From: Paraglaciecola sp. T6c
GTDB lineage: Bacteria; Pseudomonadota; Gammaproteobacteria; Enterobacterales; Alteromonadaceae
Length of the DNA: 64,000 nt
Direction: 5' to 3'
NCBI RefSeq assembly: GCF_000014225.1
Contig: NC_008228.1
Location: forward strand, 4,216,001-4,280,000
A program made the translations under genes and the position numbers. Shown here piece by piece: positions 9,530 through 62,575 of the stretch. Under the pieces are notes generated by a model. The model was not told the origin of the DNA and searched no databases. It was given only the letters and a program-made list of their open reading frames with translations. The first letter of the stretch is position 1; each line of letters begins with the position of its first letter.

Positions 9530-10985
9530 AGCCATCCTCCTGCTCTTCGTCCTTGCCACGCGGGGTTTTACTGGTGCTTTTGCTAGCACGTTTGGTTTGA
9601 TGGCTTACTGTTTGCGCAGATTCGTCTTGGGCAAAGTCATCCATGATAGAATCGATATCTTGTTCTTCGTCTTGCACGTCATCGACGACGGCGTAAGCCA
9701 CATCATCAAGCACAGTAGAGACTTTTTTCTTACCTGCACTACTGGCTGTTTTCGGTTTGTTTTTTCTGCTGCTCGATGTAGACGCTTTCGCTTTGCCGCT
9801 TCGGTCGATGGCTTGAATACCTTCAACGCGCATTTCAAAATCGATACGCACCAATAAACCCACTGCTGCAGCCATAATAATCAAACTAGAGCCGCCGTAA
9901 CTTAATAGCGGGAACGTAAGGCCTTTAGTGGGCAAAATACCGGCACTCGCGCCCACGTTCACTGCGGTTTGAAAGCTAAACCAAATACCAATGGAGTACG
10001 CAAGATAGGCATCAAAAGGACGTTCATTTTGCAGTGCTTTGCTACCCATTTTCATGGCTTTGAGCACTATGCATAGCATAAGTGCCAGCACCGTTAGCAC
10101 TCCAGCGAAACCAAGCTCTTCTGCTAAGATAGCCATGATAAAATCAGTGTGTGCTTCAGGTAAGTATTCCAACTTTTGTAAACTGTTGCCTAGGCCTTGT
10201 CCAAATACATCGCCACGTCCATAGGCCATCAGGGACTGAGTTAACTGGTAACCGCTGCCAAATGGGTCGGCCCAAGGATCTAAAAAGGAGGTAATTCGTT
10301 TCATGCGATATTCTTCGAACATGATCAAGAAGGTCACTGCTGCGCCGCCGGTAAACGCCAAGCCAAAGAACTGCCACAGTTTAGCCCCCGCCAAAAACAG
10401 TAACCCAATAGTGGTGCATAGCATGACCACAACGGTACCTAAATCAGGTTGAAGTAGCAGCAGTACAGCAAAGGCAAAGAACACCACTAACGGCTTCGCA
10501 AAGCCCTTAATGTTTTCAGTCACTTCCTCATAACGCCTAACCAAGTACCCCGCTAGATAGCAGAAAAAGAATAACTTAGCGGGTTCGGCCGCTTGAATAG
10601 TAATGGGTCCTATCGCTAGCCAACGAGTACTGCCATTGACACTGCGCCCTACTAATAAGACGGCAATCAACAGCACCAGACCTAACAGCAATAACCAAGC
10701 ATTACTGGTGCGCCACCACTGCATCGGGATCTGCATCACGGTTAAGGCCGCACCAATCGCCAATACGATATAGATGCCATGGCGGATAGCAAAATGAAAC
10801 GGGTTGTCAAACAAACGAGACGCCACCGGCATAGACGCAGACGTCACAATAACCAAGCCAATCGCCATTAACGACAGCGCCAGTAAAATCAAGCTCACAT
10901 CGTAAGGGCGAACCACCGCTGGGGCAGCATCATGTCGCTGAGCAAACATAGCGCGAAGAGGCGTCGCGAAAGTCGATGTGTTCAT
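9522..10985 (-). CDS. ftsW: Septal peptidoglycan polymerase FtsW with a long C-terminal tail
   Basis: A SEDS-family lipid II polymerase working with FtsI at the septum. About ten hydrophobic segments cover residues 27-395. Hallmarks are [26 protein letters not shown]-type residues in [15 protein letters not shown], and [12 protein letters not shown]. After the last TM (ending [10 protein letters not shown]) there is an unusual tail of about 95 residues, basic first ([16 protein letters not shown]) and then acidic ([16 protein letters not shown]), so the protein has 487 residues against 414 in E. coli. ATG overlaps the murD stop as ATGA, with AAGGAGG upstream. Confidence 0.96.
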
Positions 10986-12307
10986 CGCTGACCTCCTTGC
11001 TTAGCTACCAGAGTGTTTACCGCTTTTACGAATAAGTCGCCGCGTTGCTGATAGTTTTTAAACATATCCAAGCTAGCGCAAGCAGGTGACAGCAACACGG
11101 TCGCGTCGCCCTCTGCTAACGTAGCAGCCAATTGCACTGCATCGTCTAAGGTTGCAACCTGATGGCTGTTTGCCTTTAATTCAGCCAACTTAGGACCATC
11201 TTTACCTAGGGTAATTAACTCATTTACTTGTACGTTGAACCGCTCTTCCAGTGGCGAGAAATCAGCTCCTTTCCCGTCGCCACCCGCGATAAGGATCAAT
11301 TTGCCTTTACAGGTCGGTGATAGGCCATCGATGGCGGCAATAGTGGCGCCAACGTTGGTTGCTTTGGAATCATTTATCCAACGCACATGATGACTCACCG
11401 CCACGGTTTGACAGCGATGTGCCAGACCTGCAAAGCTGGTTGCTGCAAGCTTAATGGCAGTAAGATCAATACCCGCCAACATCGCCATGGCAGTGGCAGC
11501 TTGAATATTGAGCATATTATGCTCGCCTACCAACATGCAGGCATGGCTATCAAGGAAGTCTTTACCGTCCAGTAAAATATGCGCGGTGTCTTTATTCCAG
11601 CTCAGGCCACGTTCGCTGCTACTCAAACCAAACATGACATCAGGATTAATCGTCATAGGCCATGTGGCAGCGTCGTCACGGTTACACACGCTGAATCGTG
11701 CATCGCGATATATCCGCAGTTTTGCGCGCTGATAGCTCAGCATATCTCCGTGGCGATCCAAATGATCATCACTGAGATTTAACATGCAAGCCACGTGAGG
11801 GCGCAAGGTATAGGTGGTTTCCAGCTGAAAGCTCGATAGCTCTAAAACAATAATGTCAGCGTCTTTTTCTAACAATTCGAGGGCAGGAATACCAATATTC
11901 CCCCCTAATAACGCTTTTTTACCTGCCGCTAAACACATCTCGTAGGCAAGTGTTGCCACCGTAGATTTACCATTAGAGCCGGTAACCGCTAATACAGGTG
12001 TATTGTTGAACATGGCGAACAGTTCGATGTCGCCAATTACCTGCACGCCCGCGTCAATGGCGGCATTGATGGCCGGTGTTTTCAAACTCAAACCTGGGCT
12101 GACTACCAGCATGTCTGCGGCGCACAAACGGGCGCTATCCAGTTCACCGAGAAACACAGGAACGGATACACTGACTTCCAAATCTGCACGGGTATCCACT
12201 GCGCTCACATTGGCACCTTTAGCGACTAAAAATCTCACGCAGGACAAACCGGTCAAACCGAGTCCAACTACGATGATATTTTTATTTGCTAATGGATTAG
12301 CAGCCAT
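10982..12307 (-). CDS. murD: UDP-MurNAc-L-alanine--D-glutamate ligase MurD
   Basis: The second Mur ligase, adding D-Glu. It begins KNIIVVGLGLTGLSCVRFL (Rossmann), has the ATP loop AVTGSNGKSTVATL, LELSSFQLETT, LNLSDDHLDRHG and WINDSKATNVGAT, all diagnostic of MurD. The length of 441 residues is normal. It overlaps ftsW by four bases and starts 15 bases after the mraY stop. Confidence 0.98.
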   Translation of the reverse strand: MAANPLANKNIIVVGLGLTGLSCVRFLVAKGANVSAVDTRADLEVSVSVPVFLGELDSARLCAADMLVVSPGLSLKTPAINAAIDAGVQVIGDIELFAMFNNTPVLAVTGSNGKSTVATLAYEMCLAAGKKALLGGNIGIPALELLEKDADIIVLELSSFQLETTYTLRPHVACMLNLSDDHLDRHGDMLSYQRAKLRIYRDARFSVCNRDDAATWPMTINPDVMFGLSSSERGLSWNKDTAHILLDGKDFLDSHACMLVGEHNMLNIQAATAMAMLAGIDLTAIKLAATSFAGLAHRCQTVAVSHHVRWINDSKATNVGATIAAIDGLSPTCKGKLILIAGGDGKGADFSPLEERFNVQVNELITLGKDGPKLAELKANSHQVATLDDAVQLAATLAEGDATVLLSPACASLDMFKNYQQRGDLFVKAVNTLVAKQGGQR

Positions 12308-12322
12308 TTAACGCAATATCCT

Positions 12323-13405
12323 TTAACGTAATTTCAAGGTGGCTAAGCCAACCAAGACTAAAATGATGGAGATGATCCAGAATCGCACGATAACGCGAGG
12401 CTCTGGCCAGCCTTTTAATTCATAGTGGTGGTGGATTGGCGCCATTCTGAAAATCCGTTGGCCGCGCAATTTAAATGATCCCACCTGCAAAATAACTGAG
12501 AGCGTTTCCACCACAAATACGCCGCCCATGATCACCAGTACGATTTCTTGACGCACTAACACAGCGATGATCCCTAGCGTGCCGCCAAGTGCCAGTGAGC
12601 CAACATCGCCCATGAACACCATGGCTGGGTAAGTGTTGAACCACAAAAAGCCAAGGCCCGCGCCGACAATGGCCGTGCATACAATCACCAGTTCACTGGT
12701 CAAGGGTAAATACGGAATATTCAGGTAAGCGGAAAAGTTAATGTTACCTGTGGTGTAAGCAAAAATCGCGAATGCACCAGCCACTAGCACAGTAGGCACG
12801 ATAGCTAAGCCATCTAAACCGTCAGTTAGATTGACCGCATTACTGGTGCCGACAATCACAAAATAAGTCATCACAACGAAGAACATGCCCATTTGCGGCA
12901 TCACATCTTTGAAAAATGGCACGAGCAAGGCAGTTTCAGCTGGGTCTTGCTGGCTGGCGTATAAATACAAGGCGACACCAATAGCAATAACCGACTGCCA
13001 AAAATACTTCCAGCGCGCAATCAAGCCTTTCGGGTCTTTACGCACGACCTTACGGTAGTCATCAATAAAGCCGATAATGCCGTAACCGACAACGACACTT
13101 AACGTGACCCAAACATAGCGATTGGTTAAGTCTGCCCATAACAGTACACTTACCACAATCGCCGCCAAAATCAGTAAGCCACCCATAGTAGGTGTGCCTG
13201 ATTTGGCCAGATGAGATTGAGGGCCGTCATCACGCACCGTTTGACCAATTTGCATGGTTTGCAACCAACGGATCATCCGCGGGCCAATTAAAACGGCGAT
13301 TAACAGGGCCGTTAGCGTGCTCAAAATGGCACGAAGCGTCAGATACGAGAAGACCCTAAAGCTTGGCTCAAACTGTTGTAGCCAATCGGCCAGTAGCATC
13401 AACAT
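12323..13405 (-). CDS. mraY: Phospho-MurNAc-pentapeptide transferase MraY
   Basis: An integral membrane enzyme that links phospho-MurNAc-pentapeptide to undecaprenyl phosphate, giving lipid I. Ten predicted TM segments; signatures are the cytosolic [28 protein letters not shown] (catalytic Asp pair), [26 protein letters not shown] and the HHH motif in [11 protein letters not shown]. The length of 360 residues matches E. coli MraY. It overlaps murF by seven bases. Confidence 0.98.
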
Positions 13406-14814
13406 GCCATTAGCTCCCTAAAGCGTTCAAACTTTCCCACGGGGGATGCCTCCAAAGCTTCCACTACCAACTCCATACGCGCACTACGGGAGCCCTTTAC
13501 TAAAATGCTGATATCTCGTTTCTCCGCTGCTAAATGCTCGGCTAATGCCGCGACTAATTTGTCTTTATCACTAAAATGGTAACCGCTCTTTTGATACACA
13601 TCGCTGGCGCTTTGACTGAGCACGCCAAGAGTGTACAAGTCGTCTATGCCCTTTTCTTTGGCATATTCCCCTACTTGCTGATGATAAAAGCGTGCTCGCT
13701 CTCCTAGTTCAGCCATATCGCCTAGCACTAGAATTTTGCGCCCAGCAAAGCTGCCAAGTAAATCAATGGCTGCGTTTACAGAGGCCACGTTAGCGTTGTA
13801 TGTGTCATCAAGTACTTTAACTTGACCGCTTAGCTGCTTAACTTGTAAGCGACCACTTACTTGTGCCATGTACTGCAACCCAGCTTGCACATCTTGTAAG
13901 TTAGCACCTACTTCTATCGCCAATGCAGCAGAAACTAAGGCATTGCTGACGTTATGAATACCAGGCAAAGGCAAAGTGATGGACACCTTACCGATGGGCG
14001 TGACCATCAGAAAGTCTGCGCAACCACTTAAACCAAGTACGACATCCTGTGCGTAATAGTCGGCTTCACCTTGGGTCGAAAAACGCTGATTACGTAGATG
14101 TTCATACTTACCGTGCCAGAACGCGTAGAATTGGCTGTCGGCGTTGAAAATAGCTAGCCCGTCTTTTCCTAACCCTTTGAAAATTTCACTTTTAGCGCGT
14201 GCCACACCTAATAAGCTACCGAATCCTTCAAGGTGGGCAGCAGCAGCGTTAACGATTGTAGCCACATCTGGCTTTACCAACTCAGTGGTATAAGCAATTT
14301 CCCCAAGATGGTTAGCACCTAACTCAACCACGGCGAACTCGTGCTGCGCTTCAAGACGCAATAAGGTAAGAGGCACACCAATATCGTTGTTGAAATTGCC
14401 CTTCGTGGCGAGCACTTTACCGCGCCGAGATAAAATAGCAGCAACCATTTCTTTGACTGTGGTTTTGCCACTGCTACCGGTTATAGCCACCGTCTTTGGT
14501 GCTACCTCACGCTTTACTGCCTGTCCCAATAGTCCCAGAGCGGCTTTGGTATCACTAACTAATATTTGGGCTAACGGGGTCTCCACTTGACGGCTAACAA
14601 CTACCGCTATTGCCCCACTTGTTTGAGCCTGTTCGATAAATTTATGGCCATCGAAATTTGGTCCGCTCAAGGCAATAAATAAATCATCTGAATTTATATG
14701 ACGCGTGTCAGTGCTGACACCCTGAATTATGGCGTCTTCAGCAATACTGTTTTCACTGCGAATAATTTCGCCCTGCACTTGCTGCGCAATCCACGCCAAT
14801 GAAACCGGGATCAT
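13399..14814 (-). CDS. murF: UDP-MurNAc-tripeptide--D-alanyl-D-alanine ligase MurF
   Basis: Adds the D-Ala-D-Ala made by Ddl to the muropeptide. The ATP loop is [19 protein letters not shown]; also visible are [26 protein letters not shown] and [12 protein letters not shown], typical of MurF. It has 471 residues. The ATG overlaps the murE stop by four bases, so translation is coupled. Confidence 0.98.
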
Positions 14815-16403
14815 GTGATGTTCCTCTCAAACATTTGTTGTACGTATTCACGCTCGTCGTAAGCAACCGTTTGGTTGCCAATAATTTGGTAATCTTCGTG
14901 GCCTTTACCTGCCACTAAAATGATGTCATTCGCTGTCGCGTTCAATACGGCTTGTTCAATAGCCGCCTTGCGGTCAAGTACCACCTGCACTTTTTCTGGG
15001 TGTACACAGCCACTTAGAATATCGGTAGCAATCGCGGTGGGATCTTCCGAACGACTGTTGTCATTGGTAATGGTCATGTCATCTGCGTAGGTTTCAGCGA
15101 CCTCTCCCATCAAAGAGCGTTTACCTGTGTCTCTGTCGCCACCGCACCCAAAAATAACCGACAAACGCCCTTGGCTATGTTGGCGAAGCGCCACTAACGC
15201 TTGCTTTAAGGCATCTGGCGTATGGGCGTAATCTACTACCACGGTAGGCGAGTTGTCCCCACCAAAACGCTCCATGCGACCGGTGACCGGCACCAACAAA
15301 TGCGCATGCTTAGCGATATCATTTAGCGACTCACCTAGGCATAACTGACTCGCTATTGCAGCCAGTGCGTTAAAAATGTTAAAGCGCCCTAGTAGAGACA
15401 ATTGAATGTCACATTCACCCCATGAGCTCACCAATTTAAATCGGCACCCTTGGTTCGAATACACGACATCCTTGGCTAAACATTGATGCTCAGCGTCCGT
15501 TAGCATTAAGCTCTCGTCAGCGATCCCGTAAATAACAGGCGTTACCGCTGAAGGTAATTGCGCCAGCCAATGCTTGCTCTCAATTTCATTCCCGTTGAGT
15601 ACCGCGAATCTTAGCTCAGGTTGCTTCAATAACTCGCGTTTAGCTTGGGCGTAGGCTTGCATAGTGCCGTGATAATCGAGGTGGTCTCGCGTTAAGTTCG
15701 TCAACACAGCCACATCTGTTTTAAGCGCAGCAACGCGTTGTTGTACTAATGCATGAGAAGACACTTCAAGGGCGACTTGTTTAACCTGATCTTGTGCAAA
15801 TTGCGCCATCAATTTATGCATGCTGATAGCGTCTGGCGTGGTGTTCGCCGTTTCATTATGCGATGCGCATGCCCCTGATTGGTCAATCACACCCGAGCCT
15901 AATGTGCCAATTGACGCGGCGCGCTTGTTAAGTAGCGCTGCCAATTGACTGGTTAATTGTACTGTCGATGTCTTGCCGTTGGTGCCCGTCACGCCAATCA
16001 CTTGTATGGACTTGGCTGGGTAACCATAAAATGCAGCCGCAAGTGCGGATAACTGAGCAGATAAGTCATAAAAGCTGATGATTAACGATTGCTCGCGCAT
16101 ACTCGTATGCCCGTGCTCTGCTTGGGTTTCGCACTCGGCTATGATGACCTTTGCGCCTAAGCTAATCGCTTGAGGAATGAAATCTCGCCCGTCACGTACA
16201 TGGCCTTTGAGCGCAATAAATGCACTGTGAATAGCCACATCACGGCTATCAAGCACCAAAGATTCAATCGTAATGTCCCCGGCCTGAATACCAAATTCTA
16301 ACAGTAGCGGTTTTATACTCTGCGCTGTTTTTGAATGAGCCCGCTTTAATTGAGCTTGCTTTAATTGAGCTTGGTTAGTTTGCACTTGTTTGCTATCCAG
16401 CAT
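14811..16403 (-). CDS. murE: UDP-MurNAc-dipeptide--meso-diaminopimelate ligase MurE
   Basis: Adds the third stem residue, probably meso-DAP. The ATP loop is GVTGTNGKTSTVQL, with HETANTTPDA, VSSHALVQQRV, TNLTRDHLDYHG and VDYAHTPDALKQ. The DAP-specificity motif, usually DNPR, reads DNSRSEDP, so Pro is replaced but the DAP-contacting Arg remains. The start at 16403 has GGGAG six bases upstream and overlaps ftsI by 11; a longer form from 16448 has no ribosome site. The first 30 residues contain a repeated AQLKQAQLKRAH low-complexity stretch encoded by a 15-bp DNA repeat, making the protein longer (about 530) than E. coli MurE (495). Confidence 0.95.
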   Translation of the reverse strand: MLDSKQVQTNQAQLKQAQLKRAHSKTAQSIKPLLLEFGIQAGDITIESLVLDSRDVAIHSAFIALKGHVRDGRDFIPQAISLGAKVIIAECETQAEHGHTSMREQSLIISFYDLSAQLSALAAAFYGYPAKSIQVIGVTGTNGKTSTVQLTSQLAALLNKRAASIGTLGSGVIDQSGACASHNETANTTPDAISMHKLMAQFAQDQVKQVALEVSSHALVQQRVAALKTDVAVLTNLTRDHLDYHGTMQAYAQAKRELLKQPELRFAVLNGNEIESKHWLAQLPSAVTPVIYGIADESLMLTDAEHQCLAKDVVYSNQGCRFKLVSSWGECDIQLSLLGRFNIFNALAAIASQLCLGESLNDIAKHAHLLVPVTGRMERFGGDNSPTVVVDYAHTPDALKQALVALRQHSQGRLSVIFGCGGDRDTGKRSLMGEVAETYADDMTITNDNSRSEDPTAIATDILSGCVHPEKVQVVLDRKAAIEQAVLNATANDIILVAGKGHEDYQIIGNQTVAYDEREYVQQMFERNIT

Positions 16404-56076: not shown

Positions 56077-56676
56077 TCAATTCACACTTCTAGTGTGCGG
56101 TACGTACCTAGAGTTAGCATGCCTAAAAAATAAGTTACATTGCGTTAGCTCGAGTCCTTGCTCGGTTTCCTGCACATAAGGGTTTAGTTCTACTACGACA
56201 GAGACGTGTTCGGTTTGCCCTAAAGAAACAGCTAAGATTGATTTGTATAATTGATATTTCAAGGTCAAATCAACACTTGAAGGGACCCAAGGCATGCGCA
56301 GAATCAGATTAGAATTGCAATTTGGTGCCTGAATTGGGAAAGCGCTCTTTTTTAAAAGCACTTCAAACTGCCCACCATTTTGCTCGAATTCTTGCACTGT
56401 ATAGCGCTCTACTTGCACCACGTTTTCGATATCAAGCGTAAAACTCAAGTGATAGTACGGCTTGCCTGACGCGCTAAAATTAGTCACGTATTTAGGTTTT
56501 ATATCAATTACTTGAGTAGCAGAATTCTCTATCTGCTGGGTTGACCGTTCTTGTTGGTTGGGCTGGCTGCTTGTTGAACAAGCACTCAAACATGGCAAGA
56601 GAACCCATAAACCGACACTAAGGGTTTTTCGTGTTCCAAATGTTACTTTCCTCAAGATACTGTTCCCACTTTTCAA
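56077..56676 (-). CDS. Predicted outer-membrane or periplasmic lipoprotein
   Basis: About 199 residues, family not recognised. A basic start, a hydrophobic stretch and a lipobox LSAC (in WVLLPCLSACSTSSQ) indicate a lipoprotein. The mature part has a Q/N/S-rich linker then a beta-rich domain (YYHLSFTLDIENVVQVERYT). The frame overlaps the upstream lysozyme-like gene by 59 bases; a TTG start at 56676 with AAGGG nearby is the likeliest, but a later start is possible. It is last in a three-gene minus-strand set. Confidence 0.6.
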   Translation of the reverse strand: MKSGNSILRKVTFGTRKTLSVGLWVLLPCLSACSTSSQPNQQERSTQQIENSATQVIDIKPKYVTNFSASGKPYYHLSFTLDIENVVQVERYTVQEFEQNGGQFEVLLKKSAFPIQAPNCNSNLILRMPWVPSSVDLTLKYQLYKSILAVSLGQTEHVSVVVELNPYVQETEQGLELTQCNLFFRHANSRYVPHTRSVN

Positions 56677-57130
56677 TGAATTCCCTTGGTTTACCCTTAC
56701 CCAGCGGCGTATTGTAATATTGTTTCCAATAGTTTGCCTGCGCCTTTACATCTCCCGCATCAGGTAACTTTTCTGGTACCCGCATATAGTGAATTCGCGC
56801 CATTGCCGTTGCGTATTTGTCGTTGCCCTCAAGCTCTGCAATTTTGTCCGCATCGGGCGAGCTAAGAAAGGCAATAGCCTTGGCAGCAAGCTCACTGCGA
56901 TATCTTAAATAGTTGTCCCAAATATCATTATGAGTGGCCGGTTCGATTTGATAATAACTCAGCGCAGGCCCACCGCCCATTTGAACGCGATATTTTAAAA
57001 ACAAACTTTCCTGAATAGCTGTACCCAATAACAACTCTTCCGCGGCTATGCTCGAGGCGCCCATTTGGTTTAATACCGGCTTAATGATACTTTGCCGAAA
57101 ATCGATTATTTTTCTGATATCCATTTTCAT
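56618..57130 (-). CDS. Lysozyme-like protein (phage-type muramidase/transglycosylase-like)
   Basis: 170 residues without a signal peptide. LLLGTAIQESLFLKYRVQ contains a Glu in the position of the catalytic Glu of transglycosylases/goose-type lysozymes, followed by GGGPALSYYQIEPATHNDIW, whose YQIEP matches the GxxQI(E/M) motif after the catalytic Glu. ARIHYMRVPEKLP and YWKQYYNTPLGKG follow, a pattern seen in phage-encoded proteins. It starts five bases after a four-TM gene and overlaps the lipoprotein gene. Muramidase activity is inferred from the motifs only. Confidence 0.6.
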   Translation of the reverse strand: MKMDIRKIIDFRQSIIKPVLNQMGASSIAAEELLLGTAIQESLFLKYRVQMGGGPALSYYQIEPATHNDIWDNYLRYRSELAAKAIAFLSSPDADKIAELEGNDKYATAMARIHYMRVPEKLPDAGDVKAQANYWKQYYNTPLGKGKPREFIEKWEQYLEESNIWNTKNP

Positions 57131-57135
57131 TTCTC

Positions 57136-57696
57136 CTATTTTTGATCTTCGTTTGACGTCACTACTTCAATGGTGGTGTTTGATTCTTTTACCCTGATTT
57201 CAGTTTCAGCCTGATGAGATAGTTTATCGAGAATGTTGGGGATCATTTTTTCGGAAAAACCAGCGATAAACGCCCACAATAAGGCTTTGGCTGCATCTAT
57301 AGTGTGTTGCGGTTGAATTTGGAAAACACTTTTGAGGCCGTTGTACTCATGCTCCTTGTTTACAAATTCCGGAAACAACGGCCCGCTAAGCATGTCGGTA
57401 ATAAAAAAGGCGTAACAAATCCAACCAAGTAATCCGGCAATAATCGGAGAAATATATATTTGTAGGATCGCGTTTGCCTCGACTCTAGCTGAGACCACGC
57501 CCTTTAAGCGAAAGTAGGTACTTATTATGCCTCCGCCCGCCCCGGTAATAAAAATTGCCATGGTTAACGGGAACTCCACTTCACCATTTGCTGGTGTCCA
57601 TAATGACACGGCTAACAGCACGAAGATAATGAGTGGTGGCATACACGCATGGAAGAATACGTTTCTTGAAATGCGAAAAGCGTTCGGTTTAAGCAT
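57136..57696 (-). CDS. Four-TM membrane protein of unknown function
   Basis: 186 residues. Predicted TM segments at about 10-31 (CMPPLIIFVLLAVSLW), 42-63 (LTMAIFITGAGGGIISTYF), 76-102 (IYISPIIAGLLGWICYAFF) and 136-157 (LLWAFIAGFSEKMIPNIL). The last segment with AGFSEKMIP is a motif I have seen at the end of several uncharacterised bacterial membrane proteins, often in accessory regions. A polar tail follows. It heads the three-gene set with the lysozyme-like protein and lipoprotein. Function cannot be assigned. Confidence 0.7.
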   Translation of the reverse strand: MLKPNAFRISRNVFFHACMPPLIIFVLLAVSLWTPANGEVEFPLTMAIFITGAGGGIISTYFRLKGVVSARVEANAILQIYISPIIAGLLGWICYAFFITDMLSGPLFPEFVNKEHEYNGLKSVFQIQPQHTIDAAKALLWAFIAGFSEKMIPNILDKLSHQAETEIRVKESNTTIEVVTSNEDQK

Positions 57697-57715: not shown

Positions 57716-58111
57716 ATTAACTCTTCTAGTAATAGCGAATAAACCCCAATCTGACCAGTTACCACGCTAATCGCTGTTTCGTAACCCGCTATAGCAATAC
57801 CTTCAAGTGCCAGTGTTTTGGTAACTTGATGTATCGCTATACGTTTCCCATTTTGCAAAGGTGAGCATCAGCGACACCATTTCACCTGTATTGACAGTGG
57901 TCTCATTAGCAAACAACTCTAAATCTTCGTCTGAGTCTTTTCCAAGAGAATGTGAAATCAAATATCAAGCACAATAAAACCGACTTGAGGGTAAAGCTCG
58001 TTCTTTTTAGGAACGAAGTGTCGTCGGCCCCATCCACATAGATGACATCGAGAGAGTAGTTCCCTCAAGAGCGCCTTTACCAATTTTTGAGTCATTAATT
58101 TTCGTCGCCAT
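57716..58111 (-). pseudogene. Broken minus-strand gene interrupted by a 50-bp repeat
   Basis: From ATG 58111 the frame reads MATKINDSKIGKGALEGTTL then, after the repeat at 57970-58019 (which brings stop codons), continues in the same frame as SHSLGKDSDEDLELFANETT, GEMVSLMLTFA. A frameshift near 57860 moves to a frame ending ALEGIAIAGYETAISVVTGQ, LLLEELID, stop at 57716-57718. The three pieces look coding and make a protein of about 115 residues. No family is recognised. It lies directly upstream of the four-TM gene on the same strand, so the original operon may have had four genes. Confidence 0.5.
57970..58019. repeat. Left copy of the island repeat
   Basis: A 50-base segment starting CACAATAAAACCGACTTGAG and ending GGAACGAAGT matches 62174-62222 at about 45 positions with one indel, same orientation. 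The two copies bracket the membrane protein/nitrilase cassette at a distance of 4.2 kb. Confidence 0.85.
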
Positions 58112-58294: not shown

Positions 58295-59128
58295 GTGGGG
58301 TGCATTCAAATGCTTGAACTTCTAGGCATCATTATCGCTTTTGCCTCAATCATGCTGACACTGAGTTTACTCGTGACCACTACTTTGACAGCCTTAAATA
58401 CCGGCGATGTCGTTAAATATTGGATTATGAAACAAGGTATGAGGAAGCTAGCCGACTGCATCGCAAAAGAAACAACTCAGGATGACGAAATCCAGAACAG
58501 AATAAAATCGTCTATCGATAGTGTTATTGGTAAAGGCATCGCCCGTTCACGCAATGCGTACACATCTTTTGATGAGCTGTTAAACGCATATCAACAAGCT
58601 AACAATAAATCAAATCTCCTTCCCGATAATGTTGAATTAGATAAGGATAAACTGGCGCGCTGGTTTTCGTTGGTAGAAGATGAAACGCGAGGAAGATATA
58701 AGGGCTATAGCGACGTTATGTCGATTCTTATTGCTTCTGTGTTTGTCATTGTACTTCAACTTGACGCCATCACACTTATTAAAGATCTTAGTGATCAGAT
58801 GAGACAGAATTCTGTTTTTAATTTATCGGAAGAACACACCAAGCCTGGGCAGGCCACTAATTTACTTGTCAGCGAGTGCAATATTCCCAATGCAAACATC
58901 GCTAGATGCCCCACTCATAATAAACTTTATTTGGAAAACCATATGCCACTTAGGCCTTTTCCCCATAACTGGTCTTGGAATGATTATCGGAGTCATTTGG
59001 GGGGGTTATTGCTCAGTACCATACTCATAAGTTTAGGGGCTCCATTTTGGTTTAACACCTTGAAAAACATCTTGGGGCTAAAAGATGCTGTCGCCATGAG
59101 ATACGAGACAAAAAAGAATAAAAAGTGA
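58295..59128 (+). CDS. Three-TM membrane protein, partner of the nitrilase-domain protein
   Basis: 277 residues from GTG 58295, or 272 from ATG 58310, which has GGGG upstream. TM1 at about 8-32 (LGIIIAFASIMLTLSLLV), TM2 near 148-166 (VMSILIASVFVIVLQLDAI) and TM3 near 236-258 (LLLSTILISLGAPFWFNTL), with a soluble helical region between TM1 and TM2 and a Cys-containing loop between TM2 and TM3. The SLGAPFWFNTLKNILGL ending is found in uncharacterised membrane proteins of accessory regions. The nitrilase gene begins 27 bases downstream. A 30-codon leader frame (58225-58317) overlaps the start. Function unknown. Confidence 0.75.
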   Translation: MGCIQMLELLGIIIAFASIMLTLSLLVTTTLTALNTGDVVKYWIMKQGMRKLADCIAKETTQDDEIQNRIKSSIDSVIGKGIARSRNAYTSFDELLNAYQQANNKSNLLPDNVELDKDKLARWFSLVEDETRGRYKGYSDVMSILIASVFVIVLQLDAITLIKDLSDQMRQNSVFNLSEEHTKPGQATNLLVSECNIPNANIARCPTHNKLYLENHMPLRPFPHNWSWNDYRSHLGGLLLSTILISLGAPFWFNTLKNILGLKDAVAMRYETKKNKK

Positions 59129-59155
59129 ATTCACGGAATAAAGCAAGGGATTATA

Positions 59156-61927
59156 ATGAGCGGAAAATCAAACAACACTATAAATCAGTTTATGCAAGAC
59201 ATTTACGGGCCAGACAATAGTAGAAAGGCTGATGCCAAGTCGAAAGTTAACTGGTTTTCCTGGCCCCCGGATATTTTCTGTATTACATCCATATTATTTG
59301 ATACCTCAGGTTGGTATCGACTCGTTGTTGAGAGTCCACCGGTATTTCTAACAAAAATTCACAAGTATGAAATTTCATGCTGGTTAACTAACCCTGAATG
59401 GACAGAGGAAATTCAGGAATACGCCAATGCGTGGCGACTTTGGCTGCACATGGTACAACTAAAAAAAATCAATAAGTTAAAAAAGATAGATATATTGGAG
59501 TGCGACCCAACGGAGATTAGTAACCAAAGGCTTACGGCAACCATAAAATCTATAGAAAAATCGACACCTAATTCAATTAAGCACGTTAAGTCTAAAAGTT
59601 TTAGACGCTTATTGGAGAAGTTTCATCGTTTTTGGGAAGGAACTAAAGCCAGATATCTTGATGAATTGGTAGAGGATGACAGTCTCTTTTACGACACACG
59701 AAAAAGTGATGAACTAAATAAAAAAGATAAAAAATACGTCGAATTTATAGTCGACGTGATAGAAATGCATGCCATCGCAGATTTAGTTTCCGTTAATTTG
59801 GGTGTTGTCCGCCCCAGTGAAGCACAACGCGGTGTCTTGGAACTTGAAGCCAATACCATGCTTCTGTCGAAAGGAACTCTATCACGTATTTCTAAAGCTC
59901 ACGGTATCGTACTACCTAAACTTCGCACACCTAAAGTAGGTTTGTCCCTTAGGTCCATGTCACACAACCTCTCTTTCATCAAGTCAGAAGTTGAAGTTGT
60001 ATGGCGAACTCTCCCCTGGATGAATCTCGATGAAAACACGTTAAATATCGTCATTATTCCCAAACCTAATGAAATAAGTAAAAGCTGGTTTAAACCTATC
60101 ACTCCGCGTTTTAGGGCTTCTTTCGACAGTGCTAGATACTTTAGCTTTGAGCCGCAAGAGGCCGTTGAAAATCGGGATGCTGCATTCGTGCGAGAGGTTC
60201 AGAGAATTATCGAGTCTAGTCGCAAGCACTGCAGACGTGTGCATATGCTGGTTCTGCCTGAACTCGCTATTTCTGAAGCGGAATTGAATCACTTGAAGGA
60301 ATATTTATTCCTCAATTCATCAAACGATCAAATTCCATTGGTTATGGCCGGCGTCAGATCCTCACGCAGTAGTGTTGAGGATGACGATAATGGCGATACT
60401 CGATGTGCTAAGACAGTGAGCAACAGAGTAGTATTGAGTGCATATTTTGCTGGAAGATGGTACGACCTATATCAGGACAAGCACCACCGCTGGAGGTTAG
60501 ATTCAAGCCAAATAGAAAATTATGGGCTTTCTGGTTTTTTGCCAGGGGGGGGAAGTTGGTGGGAGAACTCATCAATTCCTAAACGAAAAATAGCGTTTCT
60601 CAGTGCCACGGGATGGTTCACATTATGCCCTTTGATCTGCGAGGATTTAGCAAGAGTTGAGCCGGTATCTAGAGTCATTCGAGGAGTAGGTCCAAACCTT
60701 GTGGTTGCAGCTTTGTTAGATGGCCCTCAAATGAAAGAGAGGTGGCCAGCCCGCTACGCTACTGTTTTAGCAGAAGATCCAGGGTCATCGGTACTCACGG
60801 TAACTGCGTTAGGAATGTGTAAGCTATCTCAGCCGAAAGGAAAGTCATTTAAACCCATTATTGCACTTTGGAAAGATCAAGCCGGCTCGTTTGAAGAAAT
60901 ATCAATAGAAGAAGGTTCCGCTGCAGTAATGCTAACAATAGAGGGAACAAAAGATACAGAATATACTGCTCATGGGATAGGGGATAATGCCGCCGCTGGT
61001 GTACTCGCTTTGCGTAACGTACATCAAATTAAACTACCAGTAGAAGATGAGTCGGAAAAAAAAGAAGAAGTCAGATACTCAGAACACAGTCCCTGTATTA
61101 AATATCTCGAAGCCTTTATAAACGATGACGCAGACTCCCGTGAAAATAACTTGAAAGAACTGTCGATGTTTACCTATTTGATTAATTTTTTTCTTTTCAC
61201 CTCCACTGAACTCGTTTCTAGCCAAACAATTGATGACGGAAAAAGTCCTTTGGACAAGGAAGCTGCAAATGAAGAACCAGATAATGGCAGTCTGTCGAGC
61301 AGTATTATTCTCTACCTCTTCTATAAAGTTTGCTGTCTTACCCGAGAAGCAAAACACACTAACAAAACGGATAGGAAAAAGACAACTAGAGAAATTAAAG
61401 AAAAGATTCAGCAACTTGCCAATGAATCCAAAACAAAGGAGCCGGGCCAAAACATTTTACCCTTACTTTTTGTTTGCTGCTTAGTTTGTGATTTTTTTGA
61501 TATAGCGAGTTTAGAACGTGATGCTTTCCTGCAGTTTAAGAAAAGTGACAATGAGCCTGAATTCGAAAATGTTAAGCAAAGAACAACACTTAAAATATCT
61601 TACCTTGAAAAACTAAAAGACACCGTAAAGGGCTTTATTCCAGAAAATTATAGACCGCTCAAATATACTGAGTTGAAAGAAGGCATAAACGGGATGCTAC
61701 TCAGTAGTGCTGTAGTAGATGAGCTTGAGAAACTGGGACATATGTGGGTGGTGAGATATGCCCAATCGGTTTCATTGGGCATTTTATGGGGAATTTACCT
61801 TCACCTTTCGACTACAACTAACATTAGTGCAAACGACACCAAAGCAAATGCACTTATGGAAGAAATTGAAACCTTATTTGCGTTCACTGATAAACCCTTT
61901 GATGTTAACGGACAACCTGATATTTAA
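59156..61927 (+). CDS. Large protein with a central nitrilase (CN-hydrolase) domain
   Basis: 923 residues. Residues 1-330 are not recognised (basic, helical; LSLRSMSHNLSFIKSEVEVVW near 270-290). Residues about 330-600 form a nitrilase-like domain with all three catalytic positions: Glu369 in VLPELAIS, Lys442 in YQDKHHRW and Cys495 in PLICEDLAR, plus GSAAVML. Residues 640-923 are helical, charged, with a hydrophobic segment (FTYLINFFLFTSTEL). Nitrilase domains are fused to reverse transcriptases in the DRT1 defence family, but no reverse transcriptase is present here. With its membrane partner in a repeat-bounded cassette at a tRNA, a defence role is plausible but unproven. Confidence 0.8.
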   Translation: MSGKSNNTINQFMQDIYGPDNSRKADAKSKVNWFSWPPDIFCITSILFDTSGWYRLVVESPPVFLTKIHKYEISCWLTNPEWTEEIQEYANAWRLWLHMVQLKKINKLKKIDILECDPTEISNQRLTATIKSIEKSTPNSIKHVKSKSFRRLLEKFHRFWEGTKARYLDELVEDDSLFYDTRKSDELNKKDKKYVEFIVDVIEMHAIADLVSVNLGVVRPSEAQRGVLELEANTMLLSKGTLSRISKAHGIVLPKLRTPKVGLSLRSMSHNLSFIKSEVEVVWRTLPWMNLDENTLNIVIIPKPNEISKSWFKPITPRFRASFDSARYFSFEPQEAVENRDAAFVREVQRIIESSRKHCRRVHMLVLPELAISEAELNHLKEYLFLNSSNDQIPLVMAGVRSSRSSVEDDDNGDTRCAKTVSNRVVLSAYFAGRWYDLYQDKHHRWRLDSSQIENYGLSGFLPGGGSWWENSSIPKRKIAFLSATGWFTLCPLICEDLARVEPVSRVIRGVGPNLVVAALLDGPQMKERWPARYATVLAEDPGSSVLTVTALGMCKLSQPKGKSFKPIIALWKDQAGSFEEISIEEGSAAVMLTIEGTKDTEYTAHGIGDNAAAGVLALRNVHQIKLPVEDESEKKEEVRYSEHSPCIKYLEAFINDDADSRENNLKELSMFTYLINFFLFTSTELVSSQTIDDGKSPLDKEAANEEPDNGSLSSSIILYLFYKVCCLTREAKHTNKTDRKKTTREIKEKIQQLANESKTKEPGQNILPLLFVCCLVCDFFDIASLERDAFLQFKKSDNEPEFENVKQRTTLKISYLEKLKDTVKGFIPENYRPLKYTELKEGINGMLLSSAVVDELEKLGHMWVVRYAQSVSLGILWGIYLHLSTTTNISANDTKANALMEEIETLFAFTDKPFDVNGQPDI

Positions 61928-61944: not shown

Positions 61945-62435
61945 CCGAGCTGAACGACCAGACATGGATCTCTGGGCTGGAGGAACTTCATCAGGAACGT
62001 GTTAACTCTGTACTCAATAAATCCAATAATCCAAATCCCAGACACAAAAAAGCCACATAAAGTCGGTTTGTGTATCTCTTTGTGTAGACAACAAAGAGAT
62101 GGTACCAGTGGGCGGGCTTGACGGGACCGACCTTCGGCCGACACGCGTGCGTGGCGACTTCGTGAATTTCAGACACAAAAAAACCGACTTGAGGGTGAAG
62201 CTCGTCTTCTTAGGAACGAAGTTCCGCCGAGTTGCACGACACCGCATGGATGCGGTGGCTGGGGGAATTTCATCAGGGATGTGTTAACTCTGTATCCAGT
62301 ACATCCAATAAACCAAATCCCAGATACAAAAAAACCAACTAAAAAGTTGGTTTAAATGTTTGGTACCAGTGCGGGCTTGATGGGACCGACCTTCGGCCGA
62401 CACGCGCGCGTGGCGACTTCGTGGATTTCAGACAC
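61945..62435. repeat. Tandem degenerate repeats with tRNA-Leu 3'-end remnants
   Basis: Two related units of about 260-280 bases. Each has a segment with GTGTTAACTCTGTA and CCAAATCCCAGA (61945-62051; 62227-62330), a hairpin with A run, a copy of the tRNA-Leu 3' end TGGTACCAGTG (62100; 62361), and GGGACCGACCTTCGGCCGAC followed by the palindrome CACGCGCGCGTG or a variant (62124; 62382). The second is followed by the complete tRNA gene. The units also include the repeat shared with 57970-58019 (62174-62222). No integrase is present. Confidence 0.8.
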
Positions 62436-62460: not shown

Positions 62461-62489
62461 GTGTACTCTTTGTGTAGACAACAAAGAGA

Positions 62490-62575
62490 TGGTACCAGTG
62501 GGCGGACTCGAACCGCCACGCTTATTCAGCAACGGATTTTGAATCCGTCATGTCTACCAATTCCATCACACTGGC
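62490..62575 (-). tRNA. leuX: tRNA-Leu(CAA)
   Basis: 86 bases with CCA encoded. The acceptor stem GCCAGTG pairs with CACTGGT, the anticodon arm is ACGGA-TTCAAAA-TCCGT giving anticodon CAA, there is a long variable arm as expected for Leu, and the T arm reads GGCGGTTCGAGTCCGCC. This is the same isoacceptor as E. coli leuX, a well-known genomic-island insertion site near lptFG. Confidence 0.95.

Follow-up and report, generated by a model that had tools for sequence, protein, structure and literature searches.

The window analysed here is a stretch of 64,000 nucleotides (nts) from Paraglaciecola sp. T6c, corresponding to contig positions 4216001-4280000 of a genome that consists of a single contig of 5.19 Mb. 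It carries two adjacent genes, one for a membrane protein and one for a protein of 923 amino acids (aa) with a nitrilase domain. As judged from sequence comparison, the latter is a real and divergent member of an unnamed nitrilase family that is related to the nitrilases of the defence reverse transcriptases (DRTs) and that is itself without a reverse transcriptase (RT). By analogy, a role in defence is likely for this enzyme, which is presented here as a candidate anti-phage device.

The two open reading frames (ORFs) are co-directional on the + strand at 58295-59128 (277 aa) and 59156-61927 (923 aa), and the ORF listing confirmed both these positions and the 27-nt gap, as described in the initial annotation. 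Since an ATG at 58310 follows in frame after the GTG at 58295, and is probably the likelier start of the two, the membrane protein is probably 272 aa long (58310-59128). Three transmembrane (TM) segments had been proposed for it, and three hydrophobic segments were indeed found by a simple Kyte-Doolittle scan; the motif GAPFWF lies at its C-terminus. The gap contains a Shine-Dalgarno-like AAGGG (59145-59149, + strand, from reading of the sequence) shortly 5' of the ATG of the nitrilase gene at 59156.

Relatives of the large protein were found in 12 plasmid records, nine of which were fetched (H4, H5 and H11 were left out) and aligned with the window protein as alignment A1, in which Glu369, Lys442 and Cys495 are invariant. 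A scan of genome contigs with the single window sequence found nothing, and the alignment from the plasmid matches was required; with A1 and the patterns ICEDLARx[DE] and [ML]DGPQ[LM]xxRW, 225 stretches were obtained, of which 182 encode a relative, and the best 80 of the 182 were kept. Viral contigs added three relatives (L091, L092 and L093). Alignment A4 comprises the window protein and 80 of these 83 relatives, with two short sequences (L043 and L081; limit 480 aa) and a near-copy of L007 (L070) left out. Glu369 (codon at 60260-60262), Lys442 (60479-60481, in the KHHRW motif), Glu470 (60563-60565) and Cys495 (60638-60640, in the ICEDLA motif) are unchanged in 81/81 sequences. As the scan patterns include the Cys motif, Cys495 was partly selected for and is not independent evidence; Glu369, Lys442 and Glu470 lie outside the patterns and hence were not selected for by them. 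Glu470 is possibly a second catalytic Glu.

An AlphaFold model of the 923-aa protein was built on A4 and has a mean predicted local distance difference test (pLDDT) score of 74.6. The nitrilase core, residues about 245-640 (59888-61075), is delimited by the model, the structure matches and the profile comparison; ten-residue blocks from about 240-640 mostly score 80-98, with lower values of 64-72 at 331-340, 401-420 and 631-640. The N-terminal region (residues 1-240; 59156-59875) is helical in the model with low confidence at about 111-190, and the C-terminal extension (residues 641-923; 61076-61924) is helical with low confidence, residues 763-849 being below 50. Cys495 is the first helix residue after a strand, at a strand-to-helix junction.

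Foldseek comparison of the model with the Protein Data Bank (PDB) gave 63 matches at E<=1e-3 (best E 5.4e-6), and all of the best 50 of these belong to the nitrilase superfamily or contain its domain. Among the matches listed are Nit2/Nit3, formamidases, amidases, other C-N hydrolases, beta-ureidopropionases, vanin and NAD synthetases, the glutaminase domain of which is nitrilase-like; target TM-scores among those listed are mostly 0.43-0.61, with identity of about 8-15% and a root-mean-square deviation of at least 4.9 A. The protein models as the alpha-beta-beta-alpha nitrilase fold, and the nitrilase domain with retained Glu369, Lys442 and Cys495 that was read initially from the letters alone is borne out by both the alignment and the predicted structure. 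A sequence search of the PDB with phmmer gave three chance-level matches (best E 0.34), and the model had no match in a viral structure library at E<=0.001.

The rows of the family come from nine named phyla, as given by record titles, many of which are of metagenome-assembled genomes. In a tree of the core with 90 rows, the window protein falls in a group of nine long proteins (the window protein, L001 and L011-L017; support 100/99), which derive from Acidobacteriota, Myxococcota, Bacteroidota and a Deinococcus plasmid. Relatives are typically about 530-720 aa long and few of the 81 A4 rows reach the C-terminal extension, which by blastp is resembled by L013 alone (E 0.010); N-terminal residues about 33-97 are matched by many relatives, so this region is not peculiar to the window protein. 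The Myxococcota contig L012 has tandem long nitrilase paralogues (9869-12625 and 13265-16135) with similar C-terminal ends.

Kinship with the nitrilases of defence reverse transcriptases

PADLOC gave a single weak match for the window protein, to RTasNitrilase (E 3.5e-4, residues 294-383). When 30 of the 81 A4 sequences, hand-picked for spread, were scanned at E<=0.01, RTasNitrilase matched seven, RT_UG5-nitrilase six (best E 2.9e-6) and Drt1a four (best E 2.8e-6). Pfam CN_hydrolase was found in 2/30 of these sequences (best E 0.032). Pfam, NCBIfam and PHROGs gave no name to either protein of the pair, so that the profile search suggested at the outset places the large protein by the weak RTasNitrilase match and neither protein in a named Pfam or NCBIfam family.

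The family core was then compared by HHalign with six DRT nitrilase domains and with CN_hydrolase proteins of the window's own genome. The former are the last 400 residues of two UG5 proteins (L135 and L136) and of four longer proteins (L138-L141), which match the UG5 profile in both RT and nitrilase parts and are DRT1-like by layout only; the latter are six housekeeping proteins (L155-L160). The Glu, Lys and Cys motifs are paired up in the match to the DRT profile, which has a probability of 95.6% (E 1.3e-8), as against 6.9% for a profile of three own-genome nitrilases and 0.4-7.2% for the six singly, the target profiles being small (six DRT and three housekeeping sequences). By this measure the family core appears to be distantly related to DRT-type nitrilases rather than to the housekeeping nitrilases of its own genome, since 95.6% stands against at most 7.2%. 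The kinship with DRT nitrilases that had been raised initially is therefore upheld, as a distant one.

No RT domain was found in the 923-aa protein by Pfam or PADLOC. Across the whole of its own genome the UG5 profile has one match only, which lies in the RT part of the profile at 2.08 Mb, about 2.2 Mb from the window, in agreement with the earlier statement that no RT is present at the cassette.

The nitrilase superfamily is mostly metabolic, and the protein could have a metabolic role as an amidase or nitrilase and be accessory cargo, for example in nitrile, amide or cell-envelope precursor processing. The amidases and Nit2-like enzymes among the structural matches listed would fit this, as would the resemblance of one locus with a DRT-type nitrilase (L137) to a polysaccharide locus and the position of some relatives among metabolic genes. 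We consider it improbable, however, given a profile that resembles the DRT domains more than it does the six own-genome nitrilases, the prophage and defence-like neighbours of some relatives, and rare presence: a single-sequence search found the protein in its own genome only among 295 of the order, and a profile search in 3/398 genomes of the phylum, own included, one being a weak partial match.

Membrane gene, neighbourhoods of relatives and proposed function

Used as a single query, the membrane protein found a relative in one plasmid (E 0.01) and in two of 295 genomes apart from its own. Together with plasmid and genome relatives (alignment A3) it forms an unnamed three-TM family with the C-terminal GAPFWF motif, which the window protein fits in both TM layout and motif and which is present in 8/249 genomes sampled from the phylum, own included. 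Fourteen loci of this family were opened (seven of 12 plasmid records and seven other genomes; some are short), and in 5/14 a hydrolase is adjacent to or fused with the GAPFWF gene: the gene lies 11 nts after a patatin gene in L102 and 1 nt ahead of an amidase gene in L103 and L104, the protein is fused to a class 3 lipase in L098/L134, and the next gene in L176, 20 nts downstream, is patatin-like by eye. A vanadium haloperoxidase is found near the gene in L100 and L101. No hydrolase neighbour was recognised in the remaining opened loci, of which L105, L106, L172 and L174 have no evident partner, and none of the opened loci adjoins a nitrilase. With its place beside, or fused to, lipid- or peptidoglycan-hydrolysing enzymes in these 5/14 loci, the family is a candidate for a membrane tether of general use.

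When the 92 other nitrilase loci, many of them shortened by contig ends, were searched in six frames with the profile of this family, the membrane gene was found in 0/92. Because of this, the nitrilase and membrane gene appear to be a local combination as far as seen, perhaps a functional one, and not a conserved system. The dedicated membrane partner of the initial annotation is thus not upheld, as its own family adjoins unrelated hydrolases where neighbours can be recognised.

When all neighbours were clustered by blastp, no family of more than three members was found within two genes of the nitrilase, and the largest clusters are ABC-transporter-like and scattered. In the Vibrionaceae/prophage group, a small gene lies directly downstream of the nitrilase in 6/93 loci (L007, L060, L070, L077, L091 and L092, with L007 and L070 from the same species) and overlaps it by 4 nts in 4/6. 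Its products, 85-108 aa and helical-looking by eye, follow a short nitrilase and are possibly its partner or regulator. A profile from five of these genes found the 6/93 loci and none further at E<=0.01. A co-oriented ORF of 60-180 aa within 80 nts is present downstream in 33/93 loci versus 8/93 upstream, most of the 33 being without demonstrated homology.

These data bear on whether the nitrilase works alone as a defence effector, the membrane gene being independent cargo of the same site. The lack of any larger neighbour family, the 0/92 count and the partnerless membrane genes of L105, L106, L172 and L174 are consistent with this, but the 27-nt spacing in one orientation is not what independent cargo would suggest, and the small gene of 6/93 loci indicates that the enzyme does take partners. 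A TM partner is also reported for the UG5 RT-nitrilase (PMC9122126). We therefore regard the single-gene explanation as rather unlikely.

The contexts of the relatives are in some cases mobile or defence-like and in others ordinary. PHROGs typing covered two viral contigs: L091 carries tail genes, a repressor and an integrase, with the nitrilase and its small gene beyond the integrase, about 0.6 kb on, and in L092, genes for a portal protein, a terminase, an integrase and phrog_3108 lie no more than 10 kb from the nitrilase. The neighbours of L009 are cyclase, E2, TIR and SIR2 (CBASS-like/SIR2), those of L003 are DGQHR proteins, and ORC-CDC6-like, HD-CE and CARF6 genes lie downstream of L016. 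In L017, a metallophosphoesterase-HATPase gene (PDC-S60) is directly upstream and RT_UG10_large is on the other strand. In L001, an AAA-TPR gene follows the nitrilase by 58 nts and a VapC-type pair is nearby. Separately, L137 holds at 1339-2220 a standalone DRT-type nitrilase of 293 aa, which by eye lies between flippase-like and glycosyltransferase-like genes.

Gene neighbourhoods had been proposed initially as a check on conserved pairing and on proximity to defence genes. Some relatives do lie near defence or prophage genes, whereas pairing with the membrane gene is not conserved; homologues occur without the partner, and the contexts among those examined are not mainly housekeeping. At E<=1e-10, PADLOC returned 139 families for 116 neighbours at <3 kb (drawn at random from 320) and 42 families for 128 neighbours at >6.5 kb (drawn from 173). 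These are families and not proteins, one restriction-modification gene matching many models; the neighbour ORFs come from a crude caller, with false ones possible, and far genes may share the same islands, so the figures are not counted as a rate.

The mobile location with direct repeats, the small partner gene of another clade and the VapC-type pair near L001 would suit a module of toxin-antitoxin-like or element-maintenance type, the enzyme being restrained by the partner gene. No conserved antitoxin-like partner was found, however, by neighbour clustering or with the membrane and small-gene profiles, and we hold such a module to be highly improbable.

The preferred reading, which we give about an even chance, is that the protein acts in abortive infection as a nitrilase effector without an RT, and that a membrane partner recruited here tethers it. 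In the DRT1 structure paper (PMC13275509), the nitrilase domain is described as an effector of abortive infection, active as a tetramer and with its substrate left open. By analogy, the 923-aa protein would be an amidohydrolase-type effector and an RT-free relative of the DRT1/UG5 nitrilase domain. Infection would be sensed through the N- and C-terminal regions and/or the membrane partner, upon which the active site would cleave a C-N bond in an essential small molecule by hydrolysis and so bring growth to a halt. This lineage would have recruited the three-TM protein as an anchor in the membrane or as a regulator. The match of the model to the nitrilase fold, the retained triad, the distant DRT kinship, the contexts of some relatives and the arrangement of the two genes are observed, whereas defence activity, substrate, sensing and the interaction of the two proteins are what we infer. 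The defence reading of the initial annotation is supported for the enzyme, as a candidate role, by its DRT kinship and by mobile or defence-like contexts of some relatives, and does not extend to a dedicated partner.

A broader proposal, which we advance more tentatively, is that the large RT-free branch of DRT-type nitrilases, which spans at least nine phyla as well as plasmids and prophages, constitutes a class of immune effectors that has so far gone unrecognised. If so, one catalytic core would be combined with varied sensors or tethers: a membrane protein here, a small protein in Vibrionaceae prophages and an AAA-TPR protein in Deinococcus, with DRT1 and UG5 as cases whose controlling partner is a fused RT. 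Through such a family, the chemistry of the nitrilase could be studied in isolation from the RT and the effector told apart from the sensor; the candidate immune enzymes would also gain one that is widespread and unannotated.

Several results weigh against a defence effector of the DRT type. The DRT kinship of the family is weak and distant: the window protein has no match to the RT_UG5-nitrilase and Drt1a profiles in PADLOC (E<=0.01), the UG5 profile does not pick it up in its own genome, and single DRT sequences were matched by the family core with 41.6-94.5% only. As to the nitrilase itself, Pfam CN_hydrolase (PF00795) does not match the window protein, and the A4 profile had zero matches among PDB sequences. 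No family match was found in 50,697 GenBank phage records, and defence enrichment around the relatives is not established as a rate. Certain neighbourhoods are ordinary in appearance, L005 lying among nif genes and L002 beside ImuA and error-prone (DNA-repair) polymerase genes, and the RT-free DRT-type nitrilase in the apparent polysaccharide locus L137 indicates that such domains need not be defensive. The 0/92 count for the membrane family counts against the partner in particular.

Possible insertion site and neighbouring genes

The site of the cassette carries marks of mobility. Copies of a spacer repeat at 57961-58026 and 62165-62229 flank the cassette as direct repeats, and a tRNA-Leu (CAA) gene on the - strand (62490-62575), the sole Rfam match, begins 562 nts past the large gene. 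A copy of the tRNA-Leu 3' end and adjoining spacer is found at 62076-62121 (96% to 62466-62511), and a second partial copy was noticed by eye near 62361; such partial copies are perhaps scars of successive integrations. The tRNA-Leu site bracketed by repeats that was noticed initially has in this way been located. The G+C content is 0.39-0.45 in the cassette, 0.46-0.47 on the right side and 0.42-0.48 on the left. In some relatives (e.g. G676, G667 and G668) the tRNA and RDD/LptF sequences occur together, and the left-side genes are on other contigs in G272, G663 and G670. None of the ten proteins around the cassette was recognised as an integrase, and a promoter scan found 5 promoters versus 9.8 expected.

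A three-gene unit on the - strand (56077-57696) lies outside the cassette and encodes a lipoprotein-like protein (56077-56676), a phrog_3108 protein (56618-57130), which is the only one of the three to match a phage family, and a two-TM protein (57136-57696). It was considered as part of the cassette and rejected, as homologues of all three occur together in G272 (L132) without a recognised nitrilase in 19 kb. A counterpart of the phrog_3108 gene, 45% identical, is present on viral contig L092, which also bears a nitrilase, and the unit is perhaps a separately mobile, phage-related module.

Comparison with known systems

Nitrilases are not common in anti-phage systems according to the DRT1 structure paper (PMC13275509). 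A literature search by titles and abstract openings, mostly of non-subscription sources, brought up the DRT1 and UG5 papers and, among the papers listed, no RT-free nitrilase defence system, which is not proof of absence. The window membrane protein shares TM layout and C-terminal motif with the GAPFWF family, but its relatives in the loci opened are in several cases beside patatin or amidase, near haloperoxidase or fused to lipase, and in none beside a nitrilase. Housekeeping nitrilases (PF00795) are alike in the fold of the window model and in the E-K-C triad, whereas the window protein lacks a CN_hydrolase match, has extra N- and C-terminal regions and belongs to a family with no specific profile similarity to the six of its own genome.

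DRT1, a class 3 UG/Abi RT with a C-terminal nitrilase, appears to have a nitrilase of the same distant group, with aligned Glu, Lys and Cys motifs. Unlike DRT1, the window protein has no RT, so there would be no protein-primed DNA synthesis to control the nitrilase, and the KHHRW and ICEDLAR motifs of the family differ by eye from the six DRT proteins. A UG5 RT-nitrilase with a one-TM protein, a P4 hotspot system, is reported to have protected against phage (PMC9122126). The window pair differs from it in having no RT and a three-TM protein whose family is found elsewhere with other enzymes; an adjacent TM gene was not seen in the short stretches L135 and L136. A membrane protein is reported as the partner in the UG5 system, and a three-TM protein lies beside the window nitrilase. 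The closest single DRT sequence to the family core is the UG5 protein L135, at 94.5% by HHalign.

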